Source: an uncultured Ruminococcus sp. (GTDB taxonomy: Bacteria; Bacillota; Clostridia; Oscillospirales; Acutalibacteraceae). From it: a stretch of DNA of 47,265 bases. A program made the translations under genes and the position numbers. Position 1 is the first letter of the stretch. Each line of letters starts with the position of its first letter. Positions 17,497 to 40,756 of this stretch are shown piece after piece. A model generated the notes under the pieces. The model was not told where the DNA came from and ran no database searches. It saw only the letters and a program-made list of their open reading frames with translations. The stretch spans positions 48,496 through 95,760 of the forward strand of contig CACXAO010000007.1 of NCBI GenBank assembly GCA_902765625.1. Direction: 5' to 3'.

Positions 17497-20400
17497 TTCC
17501 AAGGGCATGACTCCCACCTACGAGCCTGCCGATAAGTCCGTAACCGTAGGCGACAACACCGCTGAAATCAAGGTTACCAACAAGCGTCAGGCGCCCGGCG
17601 CAACCAGCTTCCCCGTTAAGTTCACAAAGCAGTTCAAATACGGCACCCTCGAGGGCAACGATTTTGAGTTCAAGATCACCGACGGCGATCCCATCACAGA
17701 CAAGACCGCCAAGAACGACAAGAACGGCGTTGCAGACTTCGGCACGGTAGATGTTAAGTATGTCAAGACGGCACAGGAGCCCGAAGGCACAACCGTCTAC
17801 CTCACCGACGACGATTTTGACGCTACCGGCGTCGCGACGCTCACCTTTACCGCTAAGGAAACCGACGCGCACAAGGCAAACGTATTCTACGATCAGGAAT
17901 CCGTTACCTTCGTACAGAAGATCAAAAAGACAGTCACCGCTGCTCAGACCACCCTCTCGCTTGATAACAGCTACTACGAGAAGGGCAACGCGTCCAACCT
18001 CACCGAGGGCAAGTTCGTCAACGAGTACAAGGGCGACATCAAGATCAGCAAGACTATCGAAAACGTTTCCGAGGCTCAGAAGGAAAAGACCTTCACAGCC
18101 GACGTTGAGATCAAGCTTGTAGGCGCAGACGGCAAGCTCAGCGAAAAGTTTGAGAAGATCCCGTACAGCTACACCTACACCGACGAAGGCTCCGCAAGAC
18201 CCGTTACGACCAATCCCACCACCGAGCTTGAGCTCAAGCACGGCAGAGTATTCACCCTCTCGGGCATCCCGATGGGTTCAGTCATTAAGGTTACAGAGCG
18301 CGCGGACGCCAAGTACACCCCGAGCTACAACACCACCGAGGCTAAGGTAGGCGAGACCGCAGAGATCATCGTTACCAACACCCTCAATACTCCCGGTGAG
18401 GCTAAGCTCGACGTTTACAAGACCTTCTCCGAGAACGCCTTAACCGCAGGCGTCAACAAGGAGTCCAAAAACAACAAGTTCTCCTTCACCATGACAGGCG
18501 ACAGCGAAAACGCTGTTCTCAAGGACTACAGCTCCACCGTAGTTCTCAGCAGCTACAAGGACGGTCTGCTTGTCGGCAAGGGCACATTCGATAAAATCAC
18601 CTTCCCGTCCAACTACGCTTACGGCAGCGGCACCGAGGTCAAGTTCCATGTTGTTGAGAACGCTCAGATCGAGGGCAACGACGGCAATATCATCTACGAC
18701 AAGTCAGAGTATGATGTTGTTTACACCGTTTCGCTCGGCGAAGAGGGAATCCGGATCAGCGATCCCGTGATCACAAAGGGCAACGCGCCTGCCGAGACCG
18801 TTTCGTTCCAAAACGATTATCCCGTAGGCAAGGTGCAGATCCTCAAGTCCGTCAAGGACTTCGACGGCACCGACCTCGAGGCGTTCAAGGCAGAAAGATT
18901 CCCGATCAAAATTACGATCACAACACCCGACGGCAATGTGACCGAGGATACCACCAAGACCATCAGCGCTGCCGACAGTCTGGATCCCGAAAAGGTTCTC
19001 ACAATCGACAAGCTTCCTTACGGCACCACCGTTAAGGTTGAAGAGACCGACGCCAAGGGCATGACCTCTTCTGTCGACAAGCCCGAAGTTACGGTTGACG
19101 AGAACACTCCGGCACAGACAGTCACAGTCACCAACACCCGTACCAAGCTCACTCCCGCAAAGGCTGCTCCTTATGTGAACAAGACAGTCAAAGGCTCCGA
19201 CATCTCGCTCTACAACGAGAAGTTTGATTTCGAGCTCAGCGGCAACGGCGTCACTCCGCTCACAGCGAAGAACAACGCTCAGGGCAAGGTACAGTTCGGC
19301 GATATCAACTTCCGTCTCAAGAAGGCAGCTTCCGACAAGACCGAAGGCAACACCATCGTTATCGACAGATCCGCGTTTGCAAACAGCAAGACCATCCCCT
19401 TCACCTTCACCGTCAAGGAGACCACCGCGGACACCGACGATATCAAGACAGACAAGACAGAAAAGACCGTAACCATCAAGGTTACACTTGACGATTCAGC
19501 GATCGACGAGGTCAAGCTCACCGCTGCGTTTGATGACACGGCTGTTCCCACCTTCACCAACGAGAAGTACGGCAGAGTCAAGGTTACAAAGAAGGTTCTC
19601 GATATCAACAATACCGAGATCAAGCCCGACGTAAACTTCGGCTTTGAGCTTTACAACGGCAACACCAAGGTAGACAGCTTCACCATCAACGTAAGCAAGA
19701 CCGACACGGAATCCTACACCTCAGCCTACTTCCCCGTAGACACCGTGCTCACCGTAAAGGAAACCAATCCCAACGGCTTCAACTGCACAAAGGATGTGCA
19801 GACGATCACGGTTCTTGACGAGGCTCAGAACGAAATTCCCGTTGTTAACTTCGATAACAAGCGTCCGCAGCCCGGCGAGGTCAGCAAGGAGTTCAGCGTA
19901 AACAAGGTTGCTCAGGGCTACAAGCTCTCAAGCGGCGACTTCAGCTTCACCGCTAAAGGCCCCAACGGCTTTGACGAGACCGTAGCCAACGACGTAAACG
20001 GCAGCGCGAACTTCAGCAAGATCACATTCAAGTACACAACAGGCGAAGAACAGAATACAGCCACCACCATTTATCTCCGCGACAAGGACTTCAAAGACGG
20101 TCCTGCGAAATTCAAGTACACAATCACAGAAAATGACGGCGGCAATAATGACATTATTTATGATCTCAACACTGTAGTAGAGGCAGTTATCACCGTTGAA
20201 ATGAACAAGGTAAGCGAGAGCGAGATCGACCTCGTTGCAAGCCTTGCCTACACCGGCGGCAACAACACCTTTACCAACCCCGTCCGCACGGGCAGTGCGA
20301 AGATCATCAAGAAGGATCAGGAAGATAATCCCGTTGACGGCGTTGAGTTCACCCTCTACAAGGTAAGCTCCGACAACCTCAGCAGACAGCAGGTTCTTGA

Positions 20401-20782
20401 GGACGGCGTTGTACAGGGCAGAACCACAACCAGCGGCGGCGAGGCAGTCTTTGAAAACCTCGACCTCTACGTTGACGGCAACCAGACGCTCAGCGATCCC
20501 GAGTATCAGTGGTACTGCTTCGCAGAGACCGATCCCGGCGACAGCCACAACCTCAACAGTGAGCTCAAGTTCTTCCGCATTCCTACCGAAGGCGTATACG
20601 ATGTAGAATACACCTACATGAACGGCAAGATCACCTCACCCATCTCGGGCGGCGACGGCATGTTCACATTCAAGCTGGTTGGTTCAATCCTTCTTGCACT
20701 TGCTTCCGCTATGCTTGCAGGCTATGTATTCTTTGTAAAGAAGTCAGACAAAAAATCAGCGCGTTACAGCGTAAAGAAATAA
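17468..20782 (+). CDS. giant pilus/adhesin protein, 3' part (frameshifted)
   Basis: In-frame continuation of the adhesin after the duplication, about 1,104 residues; the first ATG is at 17507 but has no well-placed ribosome site. It continues the alternating domain pattern (boundaries at VTNKRQAPG, FVNEYKG, VTNTLNTPG, FQNDYPVG, VTNTRTKL, FTNEKYG, FDNKRPQPG, FTNPVRTG) and ends in a SpaA/Cna-B-like domain (SAKIIKKDQEDNPVDGVEFTLYK). The C-terminus has a sorting-signal layout: SPISGG, a membrane helix, then a basic tail (KKSDKKSARYSVKK). The motif is not a canonical LPXTG. Joined to the 5' part it would make one protein of about 2,829 residues, probably the ancillary or tip pilin of the locus. 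Confidence 0.8.
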   Translation, partial: NTGVAVKEADSKGMTPTYEPADKSVTVGDNTAEIKVTNKRQAPGATSFPVKFTKQFKYGTLEGNDFEFKITDGDPITDKTAKNDKNGVADFGTVDVKYVKTAQEPEGTTVYLTDDDFDATGVATLTFTAKETDAHKANVFYDQESVTFVQKIKKTVTAAQTTLSLDNSYYEKGNASNLTEGKFVNEYKGDIKISKTIENVSEAQKEKTFTADVEIKLVGADGKLSEKFEKIPYSYTYTDEGSARPVTTNPTTELELKHGRVFTLSGIPMGSVIKVTERADAKYTPSYNTTEAKVGETAEIIVTNTLNTPGEAKLDVYKTFSENALTAGVNKESKNNKFSFTMTGDSENAVLKDYSSTVVLSSYKDGLLVGKGTFDKITFPSNYAYGSGTEVKFHVVENAQIEGNDGNIIYDKSEYDVVYTVSLGEEGIRISDPVITKGNAPAETVSFQNDYPVGKVQILKSVKDFDGTDLEAFKAERFPIKITITTPDGNVTEDTTKTISAADSLDPEKVLTIDKLPYGTTVKVEETDAKGMTSSVDKPEVTVDENTPAQTVTVTNTRTKLTPAKAAPYVNKTVKGSDISLYNEKFDFELSGNGVTPLTAKNNAQGKVQFGDINFRLKKAASDKTEGNTIVIDRSAFANSKTIPFTFTVKETTADTDDIKTDKTEKTVTIKVTLDDSAIDEVKLTAAFDDTAVPTFTNEKYGRVKVTKKVLDINNTEIKPDVNFGFELYNGNTKVDSFTINVSKTDTESYTSAYFPVDTVLTVKETNPNGFNCTKDVQTITVLDEAQNEIPVVNFDNKRPQPGEVSKEFSVNKVAQGYKLSSGDFSFTAKGPNGFDETVANDVNGSANFSKITFKYTTGEEQNTATTIYLRDKDFKDGPAKFKYTITENDGGNNDIIYDLNTVVEAVITVEMNKVSESEIDLVASLAYTGGNNTFTNPVRTGSAKIIKKDQEDNPVDGVEFTLYKVSSDNLSRQQVLEDGVVQGRTTTSGGEAVFENLDLYVDGNQTLSDPEYQWYCFAETDPGDSHNLNSELKFFRIPTEGVYDVEYTYMNGKITSPISGGDGMFTFKLVGSILLALASAMLAGYVFFVKKSDKKSARYSVKK

Positions 20783-20798
20783 TTAAAAAGGAGAATAA

Positions 20799-22202
20799 AT
20801 GATGAAAACCACAAAAAGAGTTATCGCCATTGTTATCGCGGCTCTCATGCTCGCAGCAATGATCCCCCTTACCATGGCATCCGCAGCAAAAACCTACAAG
20901 ATCAACGTTACCAGCACCAAGGAAGGCTTTGCTTTCAACATCTACAAGGTTGCTGATATCAACGTAGAAGAAGGCACATACTCAAGCGACTATGACAGCA
21001 TTCTCGCAGCTCTCAAGCAGGGCAACACCCAGACAGCTCTCACAGCAGCCGACGGTATGGATTTCTCATCCGCAACACCCGTATTCACCTACACCACCGA
21101 GGACACCGGCGTTAAGAACGTTGACGTAGCTCCCGGCGTATACTATGTAAAGTGCACCGATCACCCCGACACCGTTACCGAGGTTCAGAACCGCATGATC
21201 CCCGTTCCCTACTATGAGGACGGCAACTGGAAGACCTATGACGATGTTATCGATCTCGCTTCCAAGATCAACGTAAATCCCGTAGTTCACAAGTACATCG
21301 TTGAGGGCGAAGACCTCACCGACCGCACTGTAGTTGCTATCGGCGACACCGTAGACTTCCGTCTTACCGCTACCGTAGCAGGTTCCGTTGACAAGAAGGT
21401 TGACACCTATTCCATCATCGATACCATGGAAGAGGGCATCACCTACACAGCAAACTCCGCAAAGGTTAAGCTCGTTAAGACCGGCGTAGAAGACAGAATC
21501 CTCTCCGCCGGCACCGAGTTCACCGTTGATCCCGCTAACGACGGCAAAACAGATTCCTTCCGCGTAAACATCGACAAGAGCGTACTTGAAGGCAACGAGT
21601 TCTACGCTTACAGCACCGTAGTAGTAGATTTCAAGGGCGTTCTCAACGAGAAGGCTAAGATCGGCAAGACCGGCAACGAGAACCACGACGACCTCGAGTA
21701 CACCAACGCAGGCGAGACCGAAGTTCAGTTCGTACCCGGCGACACCGTATACGTATTCACCATGCAGATCGACGTTGAGAAGATCGACGCTGCAACAGGC
21801 GAGGCTATCAAGAACAACCCCGCTGAGTTCACCGTATTTGCCGAGGACAAGACCACTGTAGTTGCAAAGGGCGACACCGACAACGACGGTAAGATCTCCT
21901 TCAAGGGTCTCAACAAAGGCACCTACTATGTACAGGAGACCAGAGCTCCCCAGGGCTACAACCTCAACACCGCTCAGTACGAGATCAAGCTCGTTCCCTC
22001 CCTCGTAGATGAAGGCGGCAAGGTTGTAATGAACCTTGACCTCACAAAGGGCACAACCAACACCATCAAGGTAGAGGATACCAAGTCCGTACTGCCCATC
22101 ACCGGCGGCAACGGCACAATGATCTTCATGATCATCGGCGGCAGCATGATCCTTCTCGCAGGCGCTCTCCTCGTAGTAGTAATGAAGAAGAGAAGCAAGT
22201 AA
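20799..22202 (+). CDS. LPXTG major pilin (SpaA-type fimbrial backbone)
   Basis: A 467-residue protein with a signal peptide (about 1-29, ending MASAAKT). A first pilin domain is followed by an isopeptide-forming fimbrial domain (about 165-320). A C-terminal prealbumin-like SpaA domain carries the E-box YYVQETRAPQGYNL, whose Glu catalyses the Lys-Asn isopeptide bond. The sorting signal LPITG is at 432-436, followed by GG, a membrane helix and MKKRSK. The sortase would polymerise it through a lysine in the VVHKY region, which is a guess. AAGGAG precedes two consecutive ATG codons (20799, 20802); the second has the better spacing. It lies 16 nt after the giant adhesin, so both are one operon. 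No sortase gene is present in the window. Confidence 0.9.
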   Translation: MMKTTKRVIAIVIAALMLAAMIPLTMASAAKTYKINVTSTKEGFAFNIYKVADINVEEGTYSSDYDSILAALKQGNTQTALTAADGMDFSSATPVFTYTTEDTGVKNVDVAPGVYYVKCTDHPDTVTEVQNRMIPVPYYEDGNWKTYDDVIDLASKINVNPVVHKYIVEGEDLTDRTVVAIGDTVDFRLTATVAGSVDKKVDTYSIIDTMEEGITYTANSAKVKLVKTGVEDRILSAGTEFTVDPANDGKTDSFRVNIDKSVLEGNEFYAYSTVVVDFKGVLNEKAKIGKTGNENHDDLEYTNAGETEVQFVPGDTVYVFTMQIDVEKIDAATGEAIKNNPAEFTVFAEDKTTVVAKGDTDNDGKISFKGLNKGTYYVQETRAPQGYNLNTAQYEIKLVPSLVDEGGKVVMNLDLTKGTTNTIKVEDTKSVLPITGGNGTMIFMIIGGSMILLAGALLVVVMKKRSK

Positions 22203-35428: not shown

Positions 35429-37312
35429 TTGAAAGGAAAGTATAATTACCGCAAGGTGGTGCTGCTGCTTGCGGACATATTCATCATAATCACAAGCGGA
35501 GTGCTGCTCAACTACGCGCTCTCGCTGATCGGCTGGATAGGACCCGAGAGCAGCAAGGGTCTGCTCTACTACATGATCGTCAACATCCTCACCTGCGTGC
35601 TCTCGCTCGTCGTCTGCGGCGCGTACACGCGGCTGTGGCGTTACTTCAACATCAAGGACTATATAATATGCGGCGCGGCAATGGCAGGCGGCTTCACAAT
35701 CGGCTTTTTGCTGCTGTTCCTGCTTGGCAGGCGGCCGAGGCTGATATTCTGGGGTCTGTTCTTTTTGACCGCGACCGTCGGAATACTGCTTTTCCGCTAC
35801 CTGTTCAAGCGGACGTTTATTGACCTGACGGGAATCGGCTACCGCGAAAACGCCACGCGCACCCTCATCGTCGGCGCGGGTCAGGCAGGCAGAATGATTC
35901 TCCGCGAGATTCAGAACGCCGATTTTGACGAGAACAATCCGTCCAAAAATCTTCTCGCCGTCGGTTTTATCGACGACGACATCTTAAAGCAGGGCACAAA
36001 AATAGACCGTCTGCCCGTTCTCGGCACCTCGCCCGAAATCGAGCGCATCTGCGCCGAGTACAAGATACAGACGATCATCGTCGCGATACCCTCCTGCGAG
36101 GAGGACGAGAAGCGCAAGATACTCAACTTCTGCTCCAAGACCGACTGCGACATCAAGGTCATCCCGTACCTCAGCGAGCTGCTTTTCGGCGACGGCAACG
36201 ACCTTATCGCGCAGGCTAAGGAGATCAAGATCGAGGATTTGCTCGGCAGAAAGCCCATTGAGTTTGACCGCAAAAAGATACGCGATTTCATCAGGGGCAA
36301 GGTCTGCATGATAACGGGCGGCGGCGGTTCGATCGGAAGCGAGCTTGTGCGTCAGATCGCGGCATACGAGCCTGAGCAGATAATCATTATCGATATCTAC
36401 GAGAACAACGCCTACGACATTCAGCAGGAGCTTGTGCTGGAGTACGGCAGCGAGCTTAACCTCGTCACCCTCATCTCGTCCGTCCGCGACTACGACAAGA
36501 TGGAGCTTATCTTCCGCAAGTATCACCCCGAGCTTGTTTTCCACGCGGCGGCTCACAAGCACGTTCCGCTGATGGAGACCGTTCCCGAGGAGGCGGTCAA
36601 GAACAACATCTTCGGCACCTTCAACGTCGCGAAGCTTTCGCAGGATTACGGCGTTAAAAAGTTCGTTATGATCTCGACCGACAAGGCGGTCAACCCGACC
36701 AACGTCATGGGTGCGACCAAGCGCGCCTGCGAGATGATAATTCAGTACATGGCGCAGAATTCGACCCAGACGGAGTACGTGACAACGCGCTTCGGCAACG
36801 TCCTCGGCTCAAACGGTTCGGTCATTCCGCTTTTCCGCAGACAGATCGAAAGCGGCAACCCCGTCACCGTCACCCATCCCGACATAATCCGCTACTTCAT
36901 GACCATTCCCGAGGCTGTATCGCTCGTCCTCGAGGCAGGCGCTATGGCTAAGGGCGGCGAGATATTCGTGCTCGACATGGGCGCGCCGGTCAAGATCACC
37001 ACCCTCGCAGAAAACCTCATCCGTATGTACGGCAAGGTTCCCTACAAGGACGTTCCGATCGTCTTTACGGGACTCCGCCCGGGCGAGAAGCTCTTTGAGG
37101 AGCTGCTGATGGACGAGGAAGGTCTGAAATCGACCGCGAACAAAAAGATATTCATCGGCAACCAGATCGAGATAGACCCCGGCGAGCTTCACAAAAAGCT
37201 CGATATGCTGAAAAAAGCGGCGAACGACAACGACTCCGAAAAAACAGTCGAGCTGCTCGCGGAGCTGGTTCCGACGTTCCACCACAACGGTACAGAAAAG
37301 GCAGAGGCGTAA
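35429..37312 (+). CDS. membrane-anchored nucleotide-sugar 4,6-dehydratase (CapD/EpsC/PglF family)
   Basis: A 627-residue protein. Four N-terminal membrane helices (about 8-135) lead to a first Rossmann-like CoA-binding-type domain (TLIVGAGQAGRMI). An extended SDR dehydratase domain follows with NAD motif GGGGSIGSEL (about 295-304) and HAAAHKHVPLME. Its catalytic block STDKAVNPTNVMGATKR is the Thr-Asp-Lys variant typical of PglF/FlaA1-like enzymes. The likely reaction is UDP-GlcNAc to UDP-4-keto-6-deoxy sugar, feeding capsule, glycan or glycoprotein synthesis. TTG 35429 follows AAGAGGGG. Lying next to the UDP-GlcNAc precursor operon is suggestive. A terminator overlaps its stop codon. Confidence 0.9.
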   Translation: MKGKYNYRKVVLLLADIFIIITSGVLLNYALSLIGWIGPESSKGLLYYMIVNILTCVLSLVVCGAYTRLWRYFNIKDYIICGAAMAGGFTIGFLLLFLLGRRPRLIFWGLFFLTATVGILLFRYLFKRTFIDLTGIGYRENATRTLIVGAGQAGRMILREIQNADFDENNPSKNLLAVGFIDDDILKQGTKIDRLPVLGTSPEIERICAEYKIQTIIVAIPSCEEDEKRKILNFCSKTDCDIKVIPYLSELLFGDGNDLIAQAKEIKIEDLLGRKPIEFDRKKIRDFIRGKVCMITGGGGSIGSELVRQIAAYEPEQIIIIDIYENNAYDIQQELVLEYGSELNLVTLISSVRDYDKMELIFRKYHPELVFHAAAHKHVPLMETVPEEAVKNNIFGTFNVAKLSQDYGVKKFVMISTDKAVNPTNVMGATKRACEMIIQYMAQNSTQTEYVTTRFGNVLGSNGSVIPLFRRQIESGNPVTVTHPDIIRYFMTIPEAVSLVLEAGAMAKGGEIFVLDMGAPVKITTLAENLIRMYGKVPYKDVPIVFTGLRPGEKLFEELLMDEEGLKSTANKKIFIGNQIEIDPGELHKKLDMLKKAANDNDSEKTVELLAELVPTFHHNGTEKAEA

Positions 37313-37329
37313 AGCTTCTGTCTTTTTTT
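37300..37329 (+). terminator. terminator overlapping the stop codon
   Basis: Stem GGCAGAGG / CTTCTGTC (two wobbles) with the TAA stop codon in the loop, followed by seven T residues. Confidence 0.65.
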
Positions 37330-37449
37330 AGTTGGTAGTTGGTAGTTGGTAGTTGGCAGTTGGGTAGTTGGGTAGTTGGTAGTTGGGTAGTTGGTAGTTG
37401 GCAGTTGGTAGTTGGCAGTTGGTAGTTGGGTAGTTGGTAGGTGGTAGTT
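37329..37449 (+). repeat. heptanucleotide array, about 120 bp
   Basis: TAGTTGG and CAGTTGG units with occasional 8-nt variants, starting at the T run of the terminator. Confidence 0.95.
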
Positions 37450-37590
37450 GAAATATAAATCGGGTGCGGGTGTCCCGCCCAAAACTCCACTCTCCACTCT
37501 AAACTCTCCACTCTCCACTCTAAACTCTCCACTCTCAGCTCTAAACTCTCCACTCTCAGCTCTTAGCTCTAAAGCTCTCCGCTCTCCACT
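37450..37590 (+). repeat. junction motif and (ACTCTCC / ACTCTAA) array
   Basis: ATAAATCGGGTGCGG and a GGTGTCCCGCC segment, then about 100 bp of ACTCTCC, ACTCTAA and ACTCTCAGCTCTAA units. The first 50 bp match 9287-9337 almost base for base. Confidence 0.85.
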
Positions 37591-37597
37591 AATCTCC

Positions 37598-37626
37598 TTG
37601 ACTTTTGCCGCTGTTTGTGTTAAAAT
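37598..37626 (+). promoter_or_regulatory. sigma-A promoter of the nagB-glmM operon
   Basis: TTGACT (37598-37603) and TAAAAT (37621-37626), spacer 17 nt. Transcription would start near 37633, where a perfect 7-bp hairpin (GTTTACC 37633-37639 / GGTAAAC 37651-37657) would cap the 5' end. The leader is about 280 nt and contains the ribozyme. Confidence 0.75.
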
Positions 37627-37725
37627 TGCTATGTTTACCGTGGGAAAGTAGGTAAACCCGACATTGCGGTGCGGTTTGCATAAAAACGCGCCTCAAACGC
37701 ATAAAATAGTTCCTGCGAAAGGAGG

Positions 37726-37886
37726 ATATTCGGGCTATTAGCGCCGGGACCGTAACAGGTTGACGAGGTATGGCGGTTATCGAAAGATTCGGCGGATGCC
37801 GTCACGGCTCGGTGAGTCGTAAGAGAGAAACCAAAAAGCAGAATCAAAACTGTAACAAAGCGTCTCTCACCACCGAAAAAGAATAT
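37726..37886 (+). ncRNA. glmS-type glucosamine-6-phosphate ribozyme upstream of nagB
   Basis: The conserved core of the glmS ribozyme is readable in order: AGCGCC with the cleavage site between A37740 and G37741; the P2 arm leading to GTTGACGAGG; GGTTATCGA; TTCGGCGGATGCC, whose GGCGG can pair with GCGCC; and the 3' support region with TCGTAAG and AACAAAG. The P2 loop is short. Flanking ATATTC (37726-37731) and GAATAT (37881-37886) can close the fold. In known cases this RNA cleaves its own mRNA when GlcN6P binds, and the cut message is degraded. Here the first gene after it is nagB, 28 nt downstream, not glmS. Confidence 0.9.
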
Positions 37887-37913
37887 GAGATTAAGAAAAT
37901 GGAGATTTAAGAT

Positions 37914-38705
37914 ATGAGAGTTGTAATTCAGGATAACTATGACAAGATGTGCAAATGGGCTGCAAACTACATCGCAGACAAAATCAAGGCTCACAAGGAG
38001 GACCGTCCCTTTGTGCTCGGACTTCCCACCGGTTCCTCGCCCATCGGCGTTTACAAGGAGCTTTACACGATGAATCAGGCAGGCGAGCTTTCGTTCGCGA
38101 ACGTCGTCACCTTCAACATGGACGAGTACCTCGGACTTCCCCGTGAGCACGACCAGAGCTACTGGTACTTTATGCACGACTACTTCTTTGACCACCTTGT
38201 CGACATGAAGCCCGAGAACATCAATATTCTCAACGGCATGACCGACGACCCCGAGGGTGAATGCGCGCGCTACGAGGAGAAAATCGCTTCCTACGGCGGT
38301 ATCGACCTCTTTATGGGCGGCATCGGCGTTGACGGCCACATCGCCTTCAACGAGCCCTTCACAAGCCTTGCTTCGCGCACCGGCGTGAGAAACCTCACCA
38401 CCGACACCAGAATCGTTAACTCGCGTTTCTTCGGCAACGACCCCGAGGCTGTGCCCTCTCAGGCGCTCTCCGTAGGCGTAGGCACCGTTACCGATTCCAA
38501 GGAGGTTCTCATCCTCATCAACGGCCACAACAAGGCGAGAGCTCTTGCCGCTACCGTTGAGGGCAGCGTCAGCCACAAGTGGACCTGCTCCGCACTTCAG
38601 ATGCACAACGGCGCTATCATCGCCTGCGACGAGGCTGCCTGCGGCGAGCTGACTGTCGACACCTACAAATACTTCCTCGACATCGAGAAGAAGGAGAGAC
38701 TTTAA
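37914..38705 (+). CDS. nagB: NagB-type glucosamine-6-phosphate deaminase/isomerase, probably biosynthetic
   Basis: A 263-residue NagB with all catalytic residues: Asp70 (FNMDEY), Asp140-Gly-His142 (GVDGHIAFNE) and Glu147, matching E. coli Asp72, Asp141, His143 and Glu148. The phosphate loop GLPTGSSP is at 36-43. E. coli-like allosteric residues are changed: Arg158 is Gly157, Lys160 is Arg159 and Ser151 is Thr150. NagB interconverts GlcN6P + water and fructose-6-phosphate + ammonia. The upstream GlcN6P ribozyme and the two anabolic genes that follow argue that it works in the synthetic direction. GGAG at 37901-37904 serves ATG 37914. The stop overlaps the next start by 1 nt. Confidence 0.93.
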   Translation: MRVVIQDNYDKMCKWAANYIADKIKAHKEDRPFVLGLPTGSSPIGVYKELYTMNQAGELSFANVVTFNMDEYLGLPREHDQSYWYFMHDYFFDHLVDMKPENINILNGMTDDPEGECARYEEKIASYGGIDLFMGGIGVDGHIAFNEPFTSLASRTGVRNLTTDTRIVNSRFFGNDPEAVPSQALSVGVGTVTDSKEVLILINGHNKARALAATVEGSVSHKWTCSALQMHNGAIIACDEAACGELTVDTYKYFLDIEKKERL

Positions 38706-39367
38706 TGTATACTATCAAAGATATGTATGATCTCGATCATACCTTAGCGAAGGATTATCTTTCGCAGTTCACCTATCCGTGGGAGGCGCTCAAGGGTATC
38801 AAGGACTTTATCCTCGAGCTCGGTCCCACCCTCGGCGACGACTACGAGCAGAGAGCAGAGGGCGTTTGGGTTCACAAGACCGCAAAGGTTTTTGAGTCCG
38901 CATACCTCGGCGCACCCTGCATCATCGGACCTGAAACAGAGGTAAGACACGGCGCGTTCATCAGAGGCTCGGCTCTCGTCGGCGCAAACTGCGTTGTCGG
39001 CAACTCCGTTGAGCTCAAGAACGTCATCCTCTTCGACCACGTTCAGACCCCTCACTACAACTACGTAGGCGACTCCATTCTGGGTTACTTCTCCCACATG
39101 GGCGCAGGCTCGATTACCTCGAACGTAAAGTCCGACAAGAAGCTCGTCGTCGTTCACAACGGCACCGAGCACATCGAAACCGGTATCAAGAAGTTCGGCG
39201 CAATGCTGGGCGACTATGTTGAGGTAGGCTGCAACGCCGTATGCAACCCCGGCACCGTTATCGGCAGACATTCAAGCGTTTATCCCACCTCATGCGTCCG
39301 CGGCGTTATCCCCGAGAACTGCATTTTCAAGAACAGCGGCGTTGTTATAGAAAGGAAGGCTGACTGA
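38705..39367 (+). CDS. left-handed beta-helix acetyltransferase, GlmU C-terminal type
   Basis: A 220-residue protein with hexapeptide repeats (about 55-205). The block HYNYVGDSILG (His at about residue 119) aligns with the GlmU acetyltransferase motif HLTYLGDAEIG that holds its catalytic His. GAGSITSN corresponds to GAGTITCN. It probably acetylates glucosamine-1-phosphate to GlcNAc-1-phosphate. The uridyltransferase half of GlmU is missing; an N-terminal helical stretch of about 50 residues replaces it. It is coupled to nagB (TAATG) and to glmM (TGATG). AGGAG lies about 8 nt before the start. Confidence 0.85.
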   Translation: MYTIKDMYDLDHTLAKDYLSQFTYPWEALKGIKDFILELGPTLGDDYEQRAEGVWVHKTAKVFESAYLGAPCIIGPETEVRHGAFIRGSALVGANCVVGNSVELKNVILFDHVQTPHYNYVGDSILGYFSHMGAGSITSNVKSDKKLVVVHNGTEHIETGIKKFGAMLGDYVEVGCNAVCNPGTVIGRHSSVYPTSCVRGVIPENCIFKNSGVVIERKAD

Positions 39368-40716
39368 TGGGCAAGTATTTCGGAACAGACGGCTTCCGCG
39401 GCGAAGCAAACAAGAATCTGACCTTTGAGCACGCTGTGCAGATCGGCCGTTTCCTCGGCTGGTACTACGGCGCAAATCAGGGCAAAAAGGCAAAGGTTGT
39501 TATCGGCAAGGACACCCGCCGTTCATCCTATATGTTTGAGTACGCGCTGTGCACAGGCCTTATGGCGAGCGGCGCAGACGCTTATATCATGCACGTAACC
39601 ACAACCCCTTCGGTTGCGTACATCACAAGAATCGACGATTTTGACTGCGGCATCATGATCTCCGCTTCTCACAACCCCTTCTACGACAACGGCATCAAGC
39701 TTCTCAACAGCAAGGGCGAGAAGATGGAGGAGGAGACCCTGCTCAAGGTAGAGGACTACATCGACGGCAAGCTCGATATCCCCGTTGCCCACAGAGCCGA
39801 GATCGGCAGAACCGTCGACTACGTAGAGGGCAGAAACCGCTACATCGGCTACCTCATCTCGATGAGCAAGTACAGCTTCAAGAACGTCAAGGTAGGTCTT
39901 GACGTTGCAAACGGCGCGTCGTGGCAGATCGCCAAGGGCGTATTCGACGCTCTCGGCGCAAAGACATATGTTATGAACAACAACCCCGACGGCTTCAACA
40001 TCAACACCGACTGCGGTTCCACCCACATCGAGCACCTGCAGAAGTTCGTTGTTGACAACGGCCTCGACGTCGGTTTCGCTTACGACGGCGACGCTGACCG
40101 CTGCCTTGCCGTTGACGAGAAGGGCAACGTTGTAACGGGCGACCACATCATCTATATGTACGGCTGCTACATGAAGGAGAGAGGAAAGCTCCAGAACAAC
40201 AAGGTCGTTGCGACGATCATGAGCAACTTCGGTCTGTTCAAGGCTCTCGACAAGGCGGGCATTGAGTACGACAAGACAAAGGTCGGCGACAAGTATGTTT
40301 ACGAGAACATGATGCAGACCGGCAACAAGATCGGCGGCGAGGAGTCGGGACACATCATCTTCCCGACCTACGCGACAACGGGCGACGGCATTCTGACCTC
40401 GCTCAAGCTGATGGAGGTAATGCTCGCAAAGGAGAAGCCCATGAGCGAGCTTGCAGCGCCGATGGTAATGTATCCGCAGGTTCTCAAGAACGTGAGAGTA
40501 GCTTCCAAGCCCGACGCCAAGAACGACCCCGACGTACAGGCTGAGGTCGGGAAGGTAGCGGCTGCGCTGGGCGAGAACGGCAGAATCCTGCTCAGAGAGT
40601 CCGGCACAGAGCCCGTTATCCGCGTAATGGTAGAGGCAGGCTCCGACGAGGAGTGCGAGAAGTACGTAGATCAGGTAATCGACGTTATCCGCGCAAAAGG
40701 CCACATCGTAGGCTGA
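39367..40716 (+). CDS. glmM: phosphoglucosamine mutase
   Basis: A 449-residue alpha-phosphohexomutase of the GlmM branch. It has FGTDGFRG at the N-terminus, the active-site phosphoserine loop ISASHNPFYDNG (Ser101), the metal loop DGDADR, the sugar loop GGEESGH and the phosphate loop RESGTEP. It converts GlcN6P to GlcN1P, the step between the products of the two genes before it. Length is normal for GlmM. The start overlaps the acetyltransferase stop by 1 nt; AAAGGAAG precedes it. The operon ends in a strong terminator 5 nt downstream. Confidence 0.96.
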   Translation: MGKYFGTDGFRGEANKNLTFEHAVQIGRFLGWYYGANQGKKAKVVIGKDTRRSSYMFEYALCTGLMASGADAYIMHVTTTPSVAYITRIDDFDCGIMISASHNPFYDNGIKLLNSKGEKMEEETLLKVEDYIDGKLDIPVAHRAEIGRTVDYVEGRNRYIGYLISMSKYSFKNVKVGLDVANGASWQIAKGVFDALGAKTYVMNNNPDGFNINTDCGSTHIEHLQKFVVDNGLDVGFAYDGDADRCLAVDEKGNVVTGDHIIYMYGCYMKERGKLQNNKVVATIMSNFGLFKALDKAGIEYDKTKVGDKYVYENMMQTGNKIGGEESGHIIFPTYATTGDGILTSLKLMEVMLAKEKPMSELAAPMVMYPQVLKNVRVASKPDAKNDPDVQAEVGKVAAALGENGRILLRESGTEPVIRVMVEAGSDEECEKYVDQVIDVIRAKGHIVG

Positions 40717-40721
40717 TATAG

Positions 40722-40756
40722 AAAAAAGGTCTGACTTAAAGGTCGGACCTTTTTTT
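40722..40756 (+). terminator. rho-independent terminator of the nagB-glmM operon
   Basis: Stem AAAGGTCTGAC / GTCGGACCTTT with a TTAAAG loop, an A run before and seven T residues after it. Confidence 0.9.

Follow-up and report, generated by a model that had tools for sequence, protein, structure and literature searches.

The nagB operon and its leader

We analysed a 47,265-nucleotide stretch of DNA from an uncultured Ruminococcus sp. (hereafter, the window; the source genome assembly is 88.9% complete) and focused on a three-gene operon that begins with nagB and is preceded by a glmS ribozyme. In the pathway concerned, fructose 6-phosphate (Fru6P) is converted to glucosamine 6-phosphate (GlcN6P), which GlmM converts to glucosamine 1-phosphate (GlcN-1-P) on the way to N-acetylglucosamine 1-phosphate (GlcNAc-1-P); the first step is attributed to GlmS in textbooks. 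The usual context of the glmS ribozyme, before glmS, is not the one observed here, where nagB is the downstream gene. The ribozyme and the genes of the operon are the following:

37729 to 37878, forward strand: glmS ribozyme (RF00234), 63.5 bits in Rfam against a gathering threshold of 37, E 2.1e-12, model positions 1-167
37914 to 38705, forward strand: nagB, glucosamine-6-phosphate deaminase/isomerase, 263 amino acids (TIGR00502, 376.8 bits, cut-off 236.9)
38705 to 39367, forward strand: AcT, left-handed beta-helix acetyltransferase of the GlmU C-domain type (best NCBIfam model TIGR03992)
39367 to 40716, forward strand: glmM, phosphoglucosamine mutase (TIGR01455, 537.8 bits, cut-off 447.55)

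The ribozyme is the sole Rfam match in the window at gathering thresholds. An original prediction, made from the sequence alone, had placed a ribozyme core at 37726-37886 with a cut at 37740/37741, and had proposed a comparison with the Rfam model and a genome search for a second copy. The full-length Rfam match lies within a few bases of that core, and no second RF00234 match was found at E <= 0.001 anywhere in the source genome. Positions 37740 and 37741 are A(-1) and G1 of the AGCGCC motif, and cleavage is expected between these bases; A(-1)G1 is named as the cleavage dinucleotide of the glmS ribozyme in an excerpt of PMC7125110. The ribozyme ends 35 bases before the nagB start. From its sequence, it would be expected to bind GlcN6P and to cleave the leader RNA.

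The NagB of the window has E. coli NagB among its relatives in the PDB, and both exhibit the MDEY and DGHIAFNEP motifs, which we take to be active-site motifs with catalytic roles. AcT matches only the C-terminal part of TIGR03992 (137.1 bits, below the cut-off of 292.1) and is not a bifunctional GlmU, as it comprises a single domain and scores 48.9 bits with TIGR01173, against a cut-off of 366.85. The best match of the genome to the GlmU N-domain is a separate nucleotidyltransferase on contig C8. We propose AcT as a putative GlcN-1-P N-acetyltransferase. The junctions nagB/AcT (TAATG) and AcT/glmM (TGATG) each show a one-base overlap. The predicted gene order is upheld by the profile matches and the junctions, and a series of genes leading from Fru6P to GlcNAc-1-P behind the ribozyme is upheld by the gene families.

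The source genome, 88.9% complete, has no other glmM over the cut-off than that of the operon; nagB is its only PF01182 (nagB-family) match, and AcT its best GlmU C-domain match, a weaker partial match (30.8 bits) being observed on contig C16. The operon therefore looks like a housekeeping one. Three further features flank it:

35429 to 37312, forward strand: PglF/CapD-like sugar-nucleotide 4,6-dehydratase gene (PF02719, 400.5 bits; synteny)
37598 to 37626, forward strand: promoter-like site TTGACT-17-TAAAAT, the second hexamer being preceded by TG (consensus match, 10/12)
40721 to 40756, forward strand: terminator-like hairpin and T run after glmM (-20.6 kcal/mol, z -5.49)

Promoter-like sites of this kind are at chance level in the scanned region (2, against 1.7 in shuffles), and this one starts at 37598, the left edge of the region of the original prediction. 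The hairpin at 40721-40756 is not listed by a consensus terminator scan. Two tandem 7-base arrays (TAGTTGG and CTCCACT), at 37329-37590, separate the dehydratase gene from the promoter-like site. Elsewhere in the window, positions 17507-22202 encode pilin-like surface proteins with FctA, SpaA and LPXTG anchor domains.

Ribozyme and nagB occur together within the genus

The genus sample comprised 60 genomes, 26 of them with the ribozyme-nagB arrangement. The ribozyme was found in these 26 genomes (over the cut-off in 25), at 28 places. At 27 of these, nagB is located downstream, and the 28th lies at a contig edge without a match. A close nagB orthologue, start included, is present in the very same 26 genomes, and the ribozyme is present in none of the 34 genomes without one. 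These 34 comprise G153, with a nagB fragment at a contig edge, G201, with a nagB remnant, four genomes with a divergent NagB and 28 with none.

We aligned 27 genus copies of the ribozyme, that is, all places except the one at the contig edge. The core motifs AGCGCC, GAYGAGG, ATCGA and TCGGCGGAT are present in 27/27 copies, and P1, P2 and P2.2 are paired in all of them, with two-sided (compensatory) pair changes in P1 and P2. The pair 37775/37800, for instance, is G-C in 11 rows, A-U in 15 and G-U in 1. The outer stems are mostly paired in the 19 rows aligning there, the weakest pair being 37810/37814 (12/18).

In G201, the dehydratase gene is followed by the promoter-like boxes known from the window and by what is left of nagB (about residues 25-47 and 248-263), with no ribozyme; an intact AcT-glmM comes next. 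This looks like a natural deletion of the ribozyme and most of nagB (locus L205, 1340-1500).

The operon stands in the place of glmS

The source genome encodes a GlmS of 608 amino acids on contig C12, which starts with MCGIVGYVG and scores 772.8 bits with TIGR01135. The claim of the original prediction that NagB replaces GlmS in this genome therefore fails. The prediction had named a glmS gene with its own ribozyme as a finding against it: the gene is present, and the genome search (RF00234, E <= 0.001) gave no ribozyme match at it. We also considered a stray contig as the source of this gene and rejected it, as the protein groups within the nagB-positive clade of the GlmS tree. Of the 26 genus genomes that carry the ribozyme-nagB operon, 23 have a glmS over the cut-off. 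A broken-looking glmS in G182 was rejected as a natural knock-out, since an assembly fault is equally likely to account for its N run and lost stretch.

The genes surrounding glmS differ between the two groups of genomes. glmS regions were counted in 22 of the 26 nagB-positive genomes, the others being G206, without glmS over the cut-off, G173, represented by a 3,078-base contig, and G184 and G191, represented by contig-edge pieces. Among the 34 genomes without a nagB orthologue, synteny was read in 20 and, apart from these, in G201; six have no glmS over the cut-off and seven fall outside the synteny count. A dehydratase homologue precedes glmS in 20/20 of the nagB-less genomes read, one of them with a galE-like open reading frame (ORF), identified by eye, in between. 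It is found near glmS in 0/20 nagB-positive genomes, and instead precedes the ribozyme and nagB in the window and in 8/26 other genus nagB loci (gene flanks of 1.5 kb or less). The ribozyme-nagB operon thus stands where sister species have glmS, which is a positional replacement. In G201, no dehydratase or nitrogen-gene match was found within 4 kb of glmS.

In the source genome, glmS lies 65 bases behind a gene for type III glutamine synthetase (GSIII) and before an ammonium transporter (Amt) with a P-II tail. GSIII, Amt or P-II genes are present in the glmS region of 14/22 nagB-positive genomes, against 0/20 nagB-less ones. Their arrangements vary, and one also includes two more glutamine synthetases along with two ANTAR regulators. 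Fisher tests on these synteny counts treat genomes as independent and thus overstate the evidence. In the GlmS tree, the nagB-positive genomes read form one clade (support 99), so a single displacement of glmS, later rearranged, is likely. The proximity of glmS to genes for glutamine synthetase and ammonium transport suggests glutamine-fed and ammonia-fed enzymes for different nitrogen states, and lends circumstantial support to the role of ammonia put forward in the original prediction. G198 has two glmS copies, one on contig C63 and a second at locus L434, where the gene order is GSIII-glmS-Amt-PII.

Spread of the module beyond the genus

Related nagB loci were taken as the best 80 of 589 confirmed stretches, whose NagB are 71-98% identical. 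The ribozyme was found at 38 of these 80 loci, by pattern or by Rfam; the core pattern is the sole basis for 27 of the 38, it recovers 35/38 loci found by Rfam, and L121-L134 were screened by the core pattern only, without Rfam. The first gene after the ribozyme is nagB at 30 of the 38 loci, AcT at 7 and glmM at 1. At 7 of the 38, the locus contains nagB but neither AcT nor glmM, one of these (L069) ending 0.7 kb past nagB. At L077, L089, L105 and L116, glmS is also present inside or beside the cluster. Locus L058, with a ribozyme-led nagB operon, comes from the relative Ruminococcaceae bacterium P7.

In the NagB tree, 62 rows (39 with the ribozyme) separate from 19 rows without it, with a support of 89. 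Ribozyme-bearing rows are named Oscillospiraceae, Lachnospiraceae and Erysipelotrichaceae; in the rows of the module clade that bear the names Spirochaetales (L098) and Anaerolineaceae (L108), none was detected. This distribution points to a transfer of the ribozyme-nagB module between lineages. We place its spread at the level of families of Bacillota and not of phyla, as the loci bearing names of other phyla gave no ribozyme. Most inner branches of this tree are weak, and its rows are mainly metagenome-assembled genomes, so single names may be binning errors. Weak ribozymes hidden in seven module loci without one were considered and rejected, as no RF00234 match was found there at E up to 5. 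Carriage of the module on plasmids was likewise rejected: 24 plasmid records matched, none covering 80% of the query.

The survey of the class (391 genomes) gave the ribozyme in 148 genomes, at 150 places. A glmS homologue is present in the region at 143/150 of these places (142/148 fetched loci plus G134), so nagB is a minority partner of the ribozyme. The seven places without glmS are this window, the nagB loci L373 and L382, the AcT-glmM locus L368 and three without a match. At L382 (G344; 580-2352), a ribozyme match below the cut-off is followed by a nagB that is cut off after residue 111, behind which lies a transposase-like ORF (DDE_Tnp_1, 32.1 bits). In the family sample, the ribozyme precedes glmS at 9/12 places. 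Ribozymes before nagB, for which the original prediction had suggested a survey, are thus found at nagB loci in the genus, in the class and in wider relatives.

An unusual position is observed in G123, where a ribozyme match (L026, 1501-1652) begins a few bases past the stop codon of glmM; behind it, a terminator-like repeat and a T run were seen by eye. No glmS or nagB match was found in the 1.5 kb after this ribozyme, which may be a 3' untranslated region (UTR) ribozyme or a relic.

Direction of the NagB reaction

The deacetylase gene of N-acetylglucosamine 6-phosphate (GlcNAc-6-P) breakdown, nagA, is over the cut-off (225.65 bits) in 0/60 genus genomes, against 7/14 controls. In the source genome (assembly 88.9% complete), the best score with the nagA model is 24.7 bits. 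The standard breakdown of GlcNAc-6-P is therefore seemingly not encoded. As destruction of the mRNA at high GlcN6P is homeostatically sensible for an operon whose net effect is GlcN6P synthesis, we infer this direction for NagB; the feedback logic of the original prediction fits it, as does the lack of nagA over the cut-off.

Four congeners, G165 (99% complete), G174, G189 and G204, lack both a glmS and a nagA over the cut-off and exhibit a divergent NagB (36-37%) encoded directly behind glmM. These genomes are an independent pointer to a biosynthetic NagB. In G165 (L384, 2040-3662), the glmM ORF has an N-terminal helix-turn-helix (HTH_3, 56.4 bits) and directly precedes a shorter nagB of this other type. 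Changes in NagB at the site of the E. coli allosteric loop were considered as a biosynthetic mark and rejected, because they are common to all 80 relatives (the best 80 of 589), with or without the ribozyme.

Interpretation of the operon

We read the ribozyme-led operon, its co-occurrence across genomes, the synteny contrast, the glmS gene elsewhere and the lack of nagA over the cut-off together. The operon is, in our judgement, likely to be a biosynthetic module from Fru6P to GlcNAc-1-P, in which NagB acts as an ammonia-dependent GlcN6P synthase under ribozyme feedback. NagB would form GlcN6P from Fru6P and ammonia, GlmM would convert GlcN6P to GlcN-1-P, and AcT would convert the latter to GlcNAc-1-P. 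When GlcN6P is plentiful, the leader ribozyme would bind it, cut the mRNA and lower synthesis. The module was probably gained once in the clade, at the place that glmS occupies in sister species, with glmS being kept without a ribozyme. Each cell would then have two enzymes for GlcN6P synthesis: one would use ammonia and be controlled by product feedback, and the other would use glutamine and be tied to nitrogen assimilation.

Several observations weigh against this interpretation. Since glmS is present, NagB need not make GlcN6P, and no sequence mark of a reversed NagB direction was found. Weak matches to the nagA model, scoring at most 34.5 bits against the cut-off of 225.65, occur in 30/60 genus genomes. 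Only 9/27 genus loci show the dehydratase before nagB, within flanks of 1.5 kb or less. In 8/22 nagB-positive genomes no nitrogen gene is found near glmS, and the contig pieces of G173, G184 and G191 are also without nitrogen-gene matches. The nagB-positive genomes form one GlmS clade, so the synteny counts reflect few events. In the module clade of the NagB tree, 23/62 rows have no detected ribozyme. According to an excerpt of PMC5902328, the NagB of Akkermansia, an organism without GlmS, has Km values of 41 mM (ammonium) and 5.5 mM (Fru6P), and amination by it in vivo was considered unlikely. The same excerpt states that Akkermansia requires N-acetylglucosamine (GlcNAc), since amination by its NagB does not occur under physiological conditions; the absence of GlmS is therefore no proof of amination. 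Finally, an excerpt of PMC5552732 describes the GSIII-2/amtB cluster of Prevotella ruminicola as induced under limiting ammonium and, elsewhere, under non-limiting ammonium. As these statements conflict, a GSIII/amtB-type cluster need not mean low nitrogen.

The Akkermansia enzyme and the presence of glmS would also fit a NagB that deaminates, serving as an overflow valve or in the scavenging of glucosamine, in an operon that merely groups GlcN6P enzymes; NagB enzymes are, moreover, mostly known as catabolic. We consider this unlikely, because nagA is over the cut-off in none of the 60 genomes, because a switch that destroys the mRNA would close the drain exactly when GlcN6P is high, and because the operon occupies the slot of glmS behind the dehydratase.

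It is improbable that the ribozyme serves to control GlmM and AcT, with nagB as a passenger. The ribozyme precedes AcT or glmM at 8/38 loci, it directly follows glmM in G123, with no nagB or glmS near, and G563 exhibits ribozyme-AcT-glmM (L385, 3051-5273, a wider view of L368), the 3 kb behind glmM containing neither nagB nor glmS; this locus also speaks against the biosynthetic interpretation. On the other side, G201 kept AcT-glmM and lost the ribozyme and most of nagB together, 7/38 ribozyme loci have nagB without AcT or glmM, and no genus genome without a nagB orthologue carries the ribozyme. A cut in GlmM alone at high GlcN6P would, furthermore, raise GlcN6P more.

That NagB is the sole GlcN6P synthase and GlmS is missing, as first proposed, is hardly credible: G206 (80% complete) contains nagB with no glmS above the cut-off, and four congeners with another NagB have none either, but the version is refuted for this genome by glmS at 772.8 bits, whose grouping with nagB-positive congeners makes a stray contig unlikely. 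The ribozyme-led nagB operon of the original prediction thus stands, its biosynthetic role is likely, and the missing GlmS is refuted for this genome.

A wider account would join a division of labour by nitrogen supply between two GlcN6P synthases, an ammonia-fed, ribozyme-controlled NagB as the housekeeping source of wall amino sugar in the place of glmS, a glmS moved to nitrogen genes, and a module passing between Bacillota families with its gene order shuffled and the ribozyme kept in front. Taken jointly, these elements are possible, and we put them forward tentatively.

Relation to known systems and significance

The RNA and each of the enzymes belong to known families. The RNA model, the core motifs, the cut site, the leader position and the expected GlcN6P feedback are those of the glmS ribozyme before glmS (RF00234, Bacillus subtilis type). 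In contrast to that type, the first downstream enzyme here is NagB, two more pathway genes follow, and the glmS of the genome has no ribozyme match. The catabolic nagAB operon, controlled by NagR, shares the NagB family enzyme; here, however, the genus sample gave no nagA over the cut-off, nagB is joined to glmM and an acetyltransferase, and the ribozyme control is expected to respond oppositely.

Ammonia-dependent formation of GlcN6P is known from archaeal GlmD and from the Giardia isomerase. As proposed here, the deaminase reaction would likewise run backwards, whereas the present system is bacterial, is controlled by a ribozyme and retains GlmS alongside. Glutamate dehydrogenase (GDH) and the glutamine synthetase-glutamate synthase pathway (GS-GOGAT) are a pair of ammonia- and glutamine-using enzymes. 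The proposed arrangement would similarly split one reaction into ammonia-fed and glutamine-fed routes, with an amino sugar and not an amino acid as the product, and with the ammonia branch under RNA feedback. Aminating activity of NagB-type enzymes is also mentioned, with Giardia cited, in the excerpt of PMC5902328.

Our literature search, covering titles and abstract openings, gave no report of a glmS ribozyme before nagB, and earlier mention in surveys of ribozyme distribution is possible. Positional replacement of glmS and a link between glmS and nitrogen genes were likewise not found in this search, and such surveys may mention them.

If the biosynthetic interpretation is true, the glmS ribozyme gains a second controlled enzyme, and NagB would be a physiological ammonia-dependent GlcN6P synthase in bacteria. 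nagB genes of this kind would currently be labelled catabolic in annotation. For activators of the glmS ribozyme considered as antibacterials, the enzyme that is shut down would vary between bacteria. In the rumen and the gut, the supply of cell-wall precursors would be tied to ammonia.

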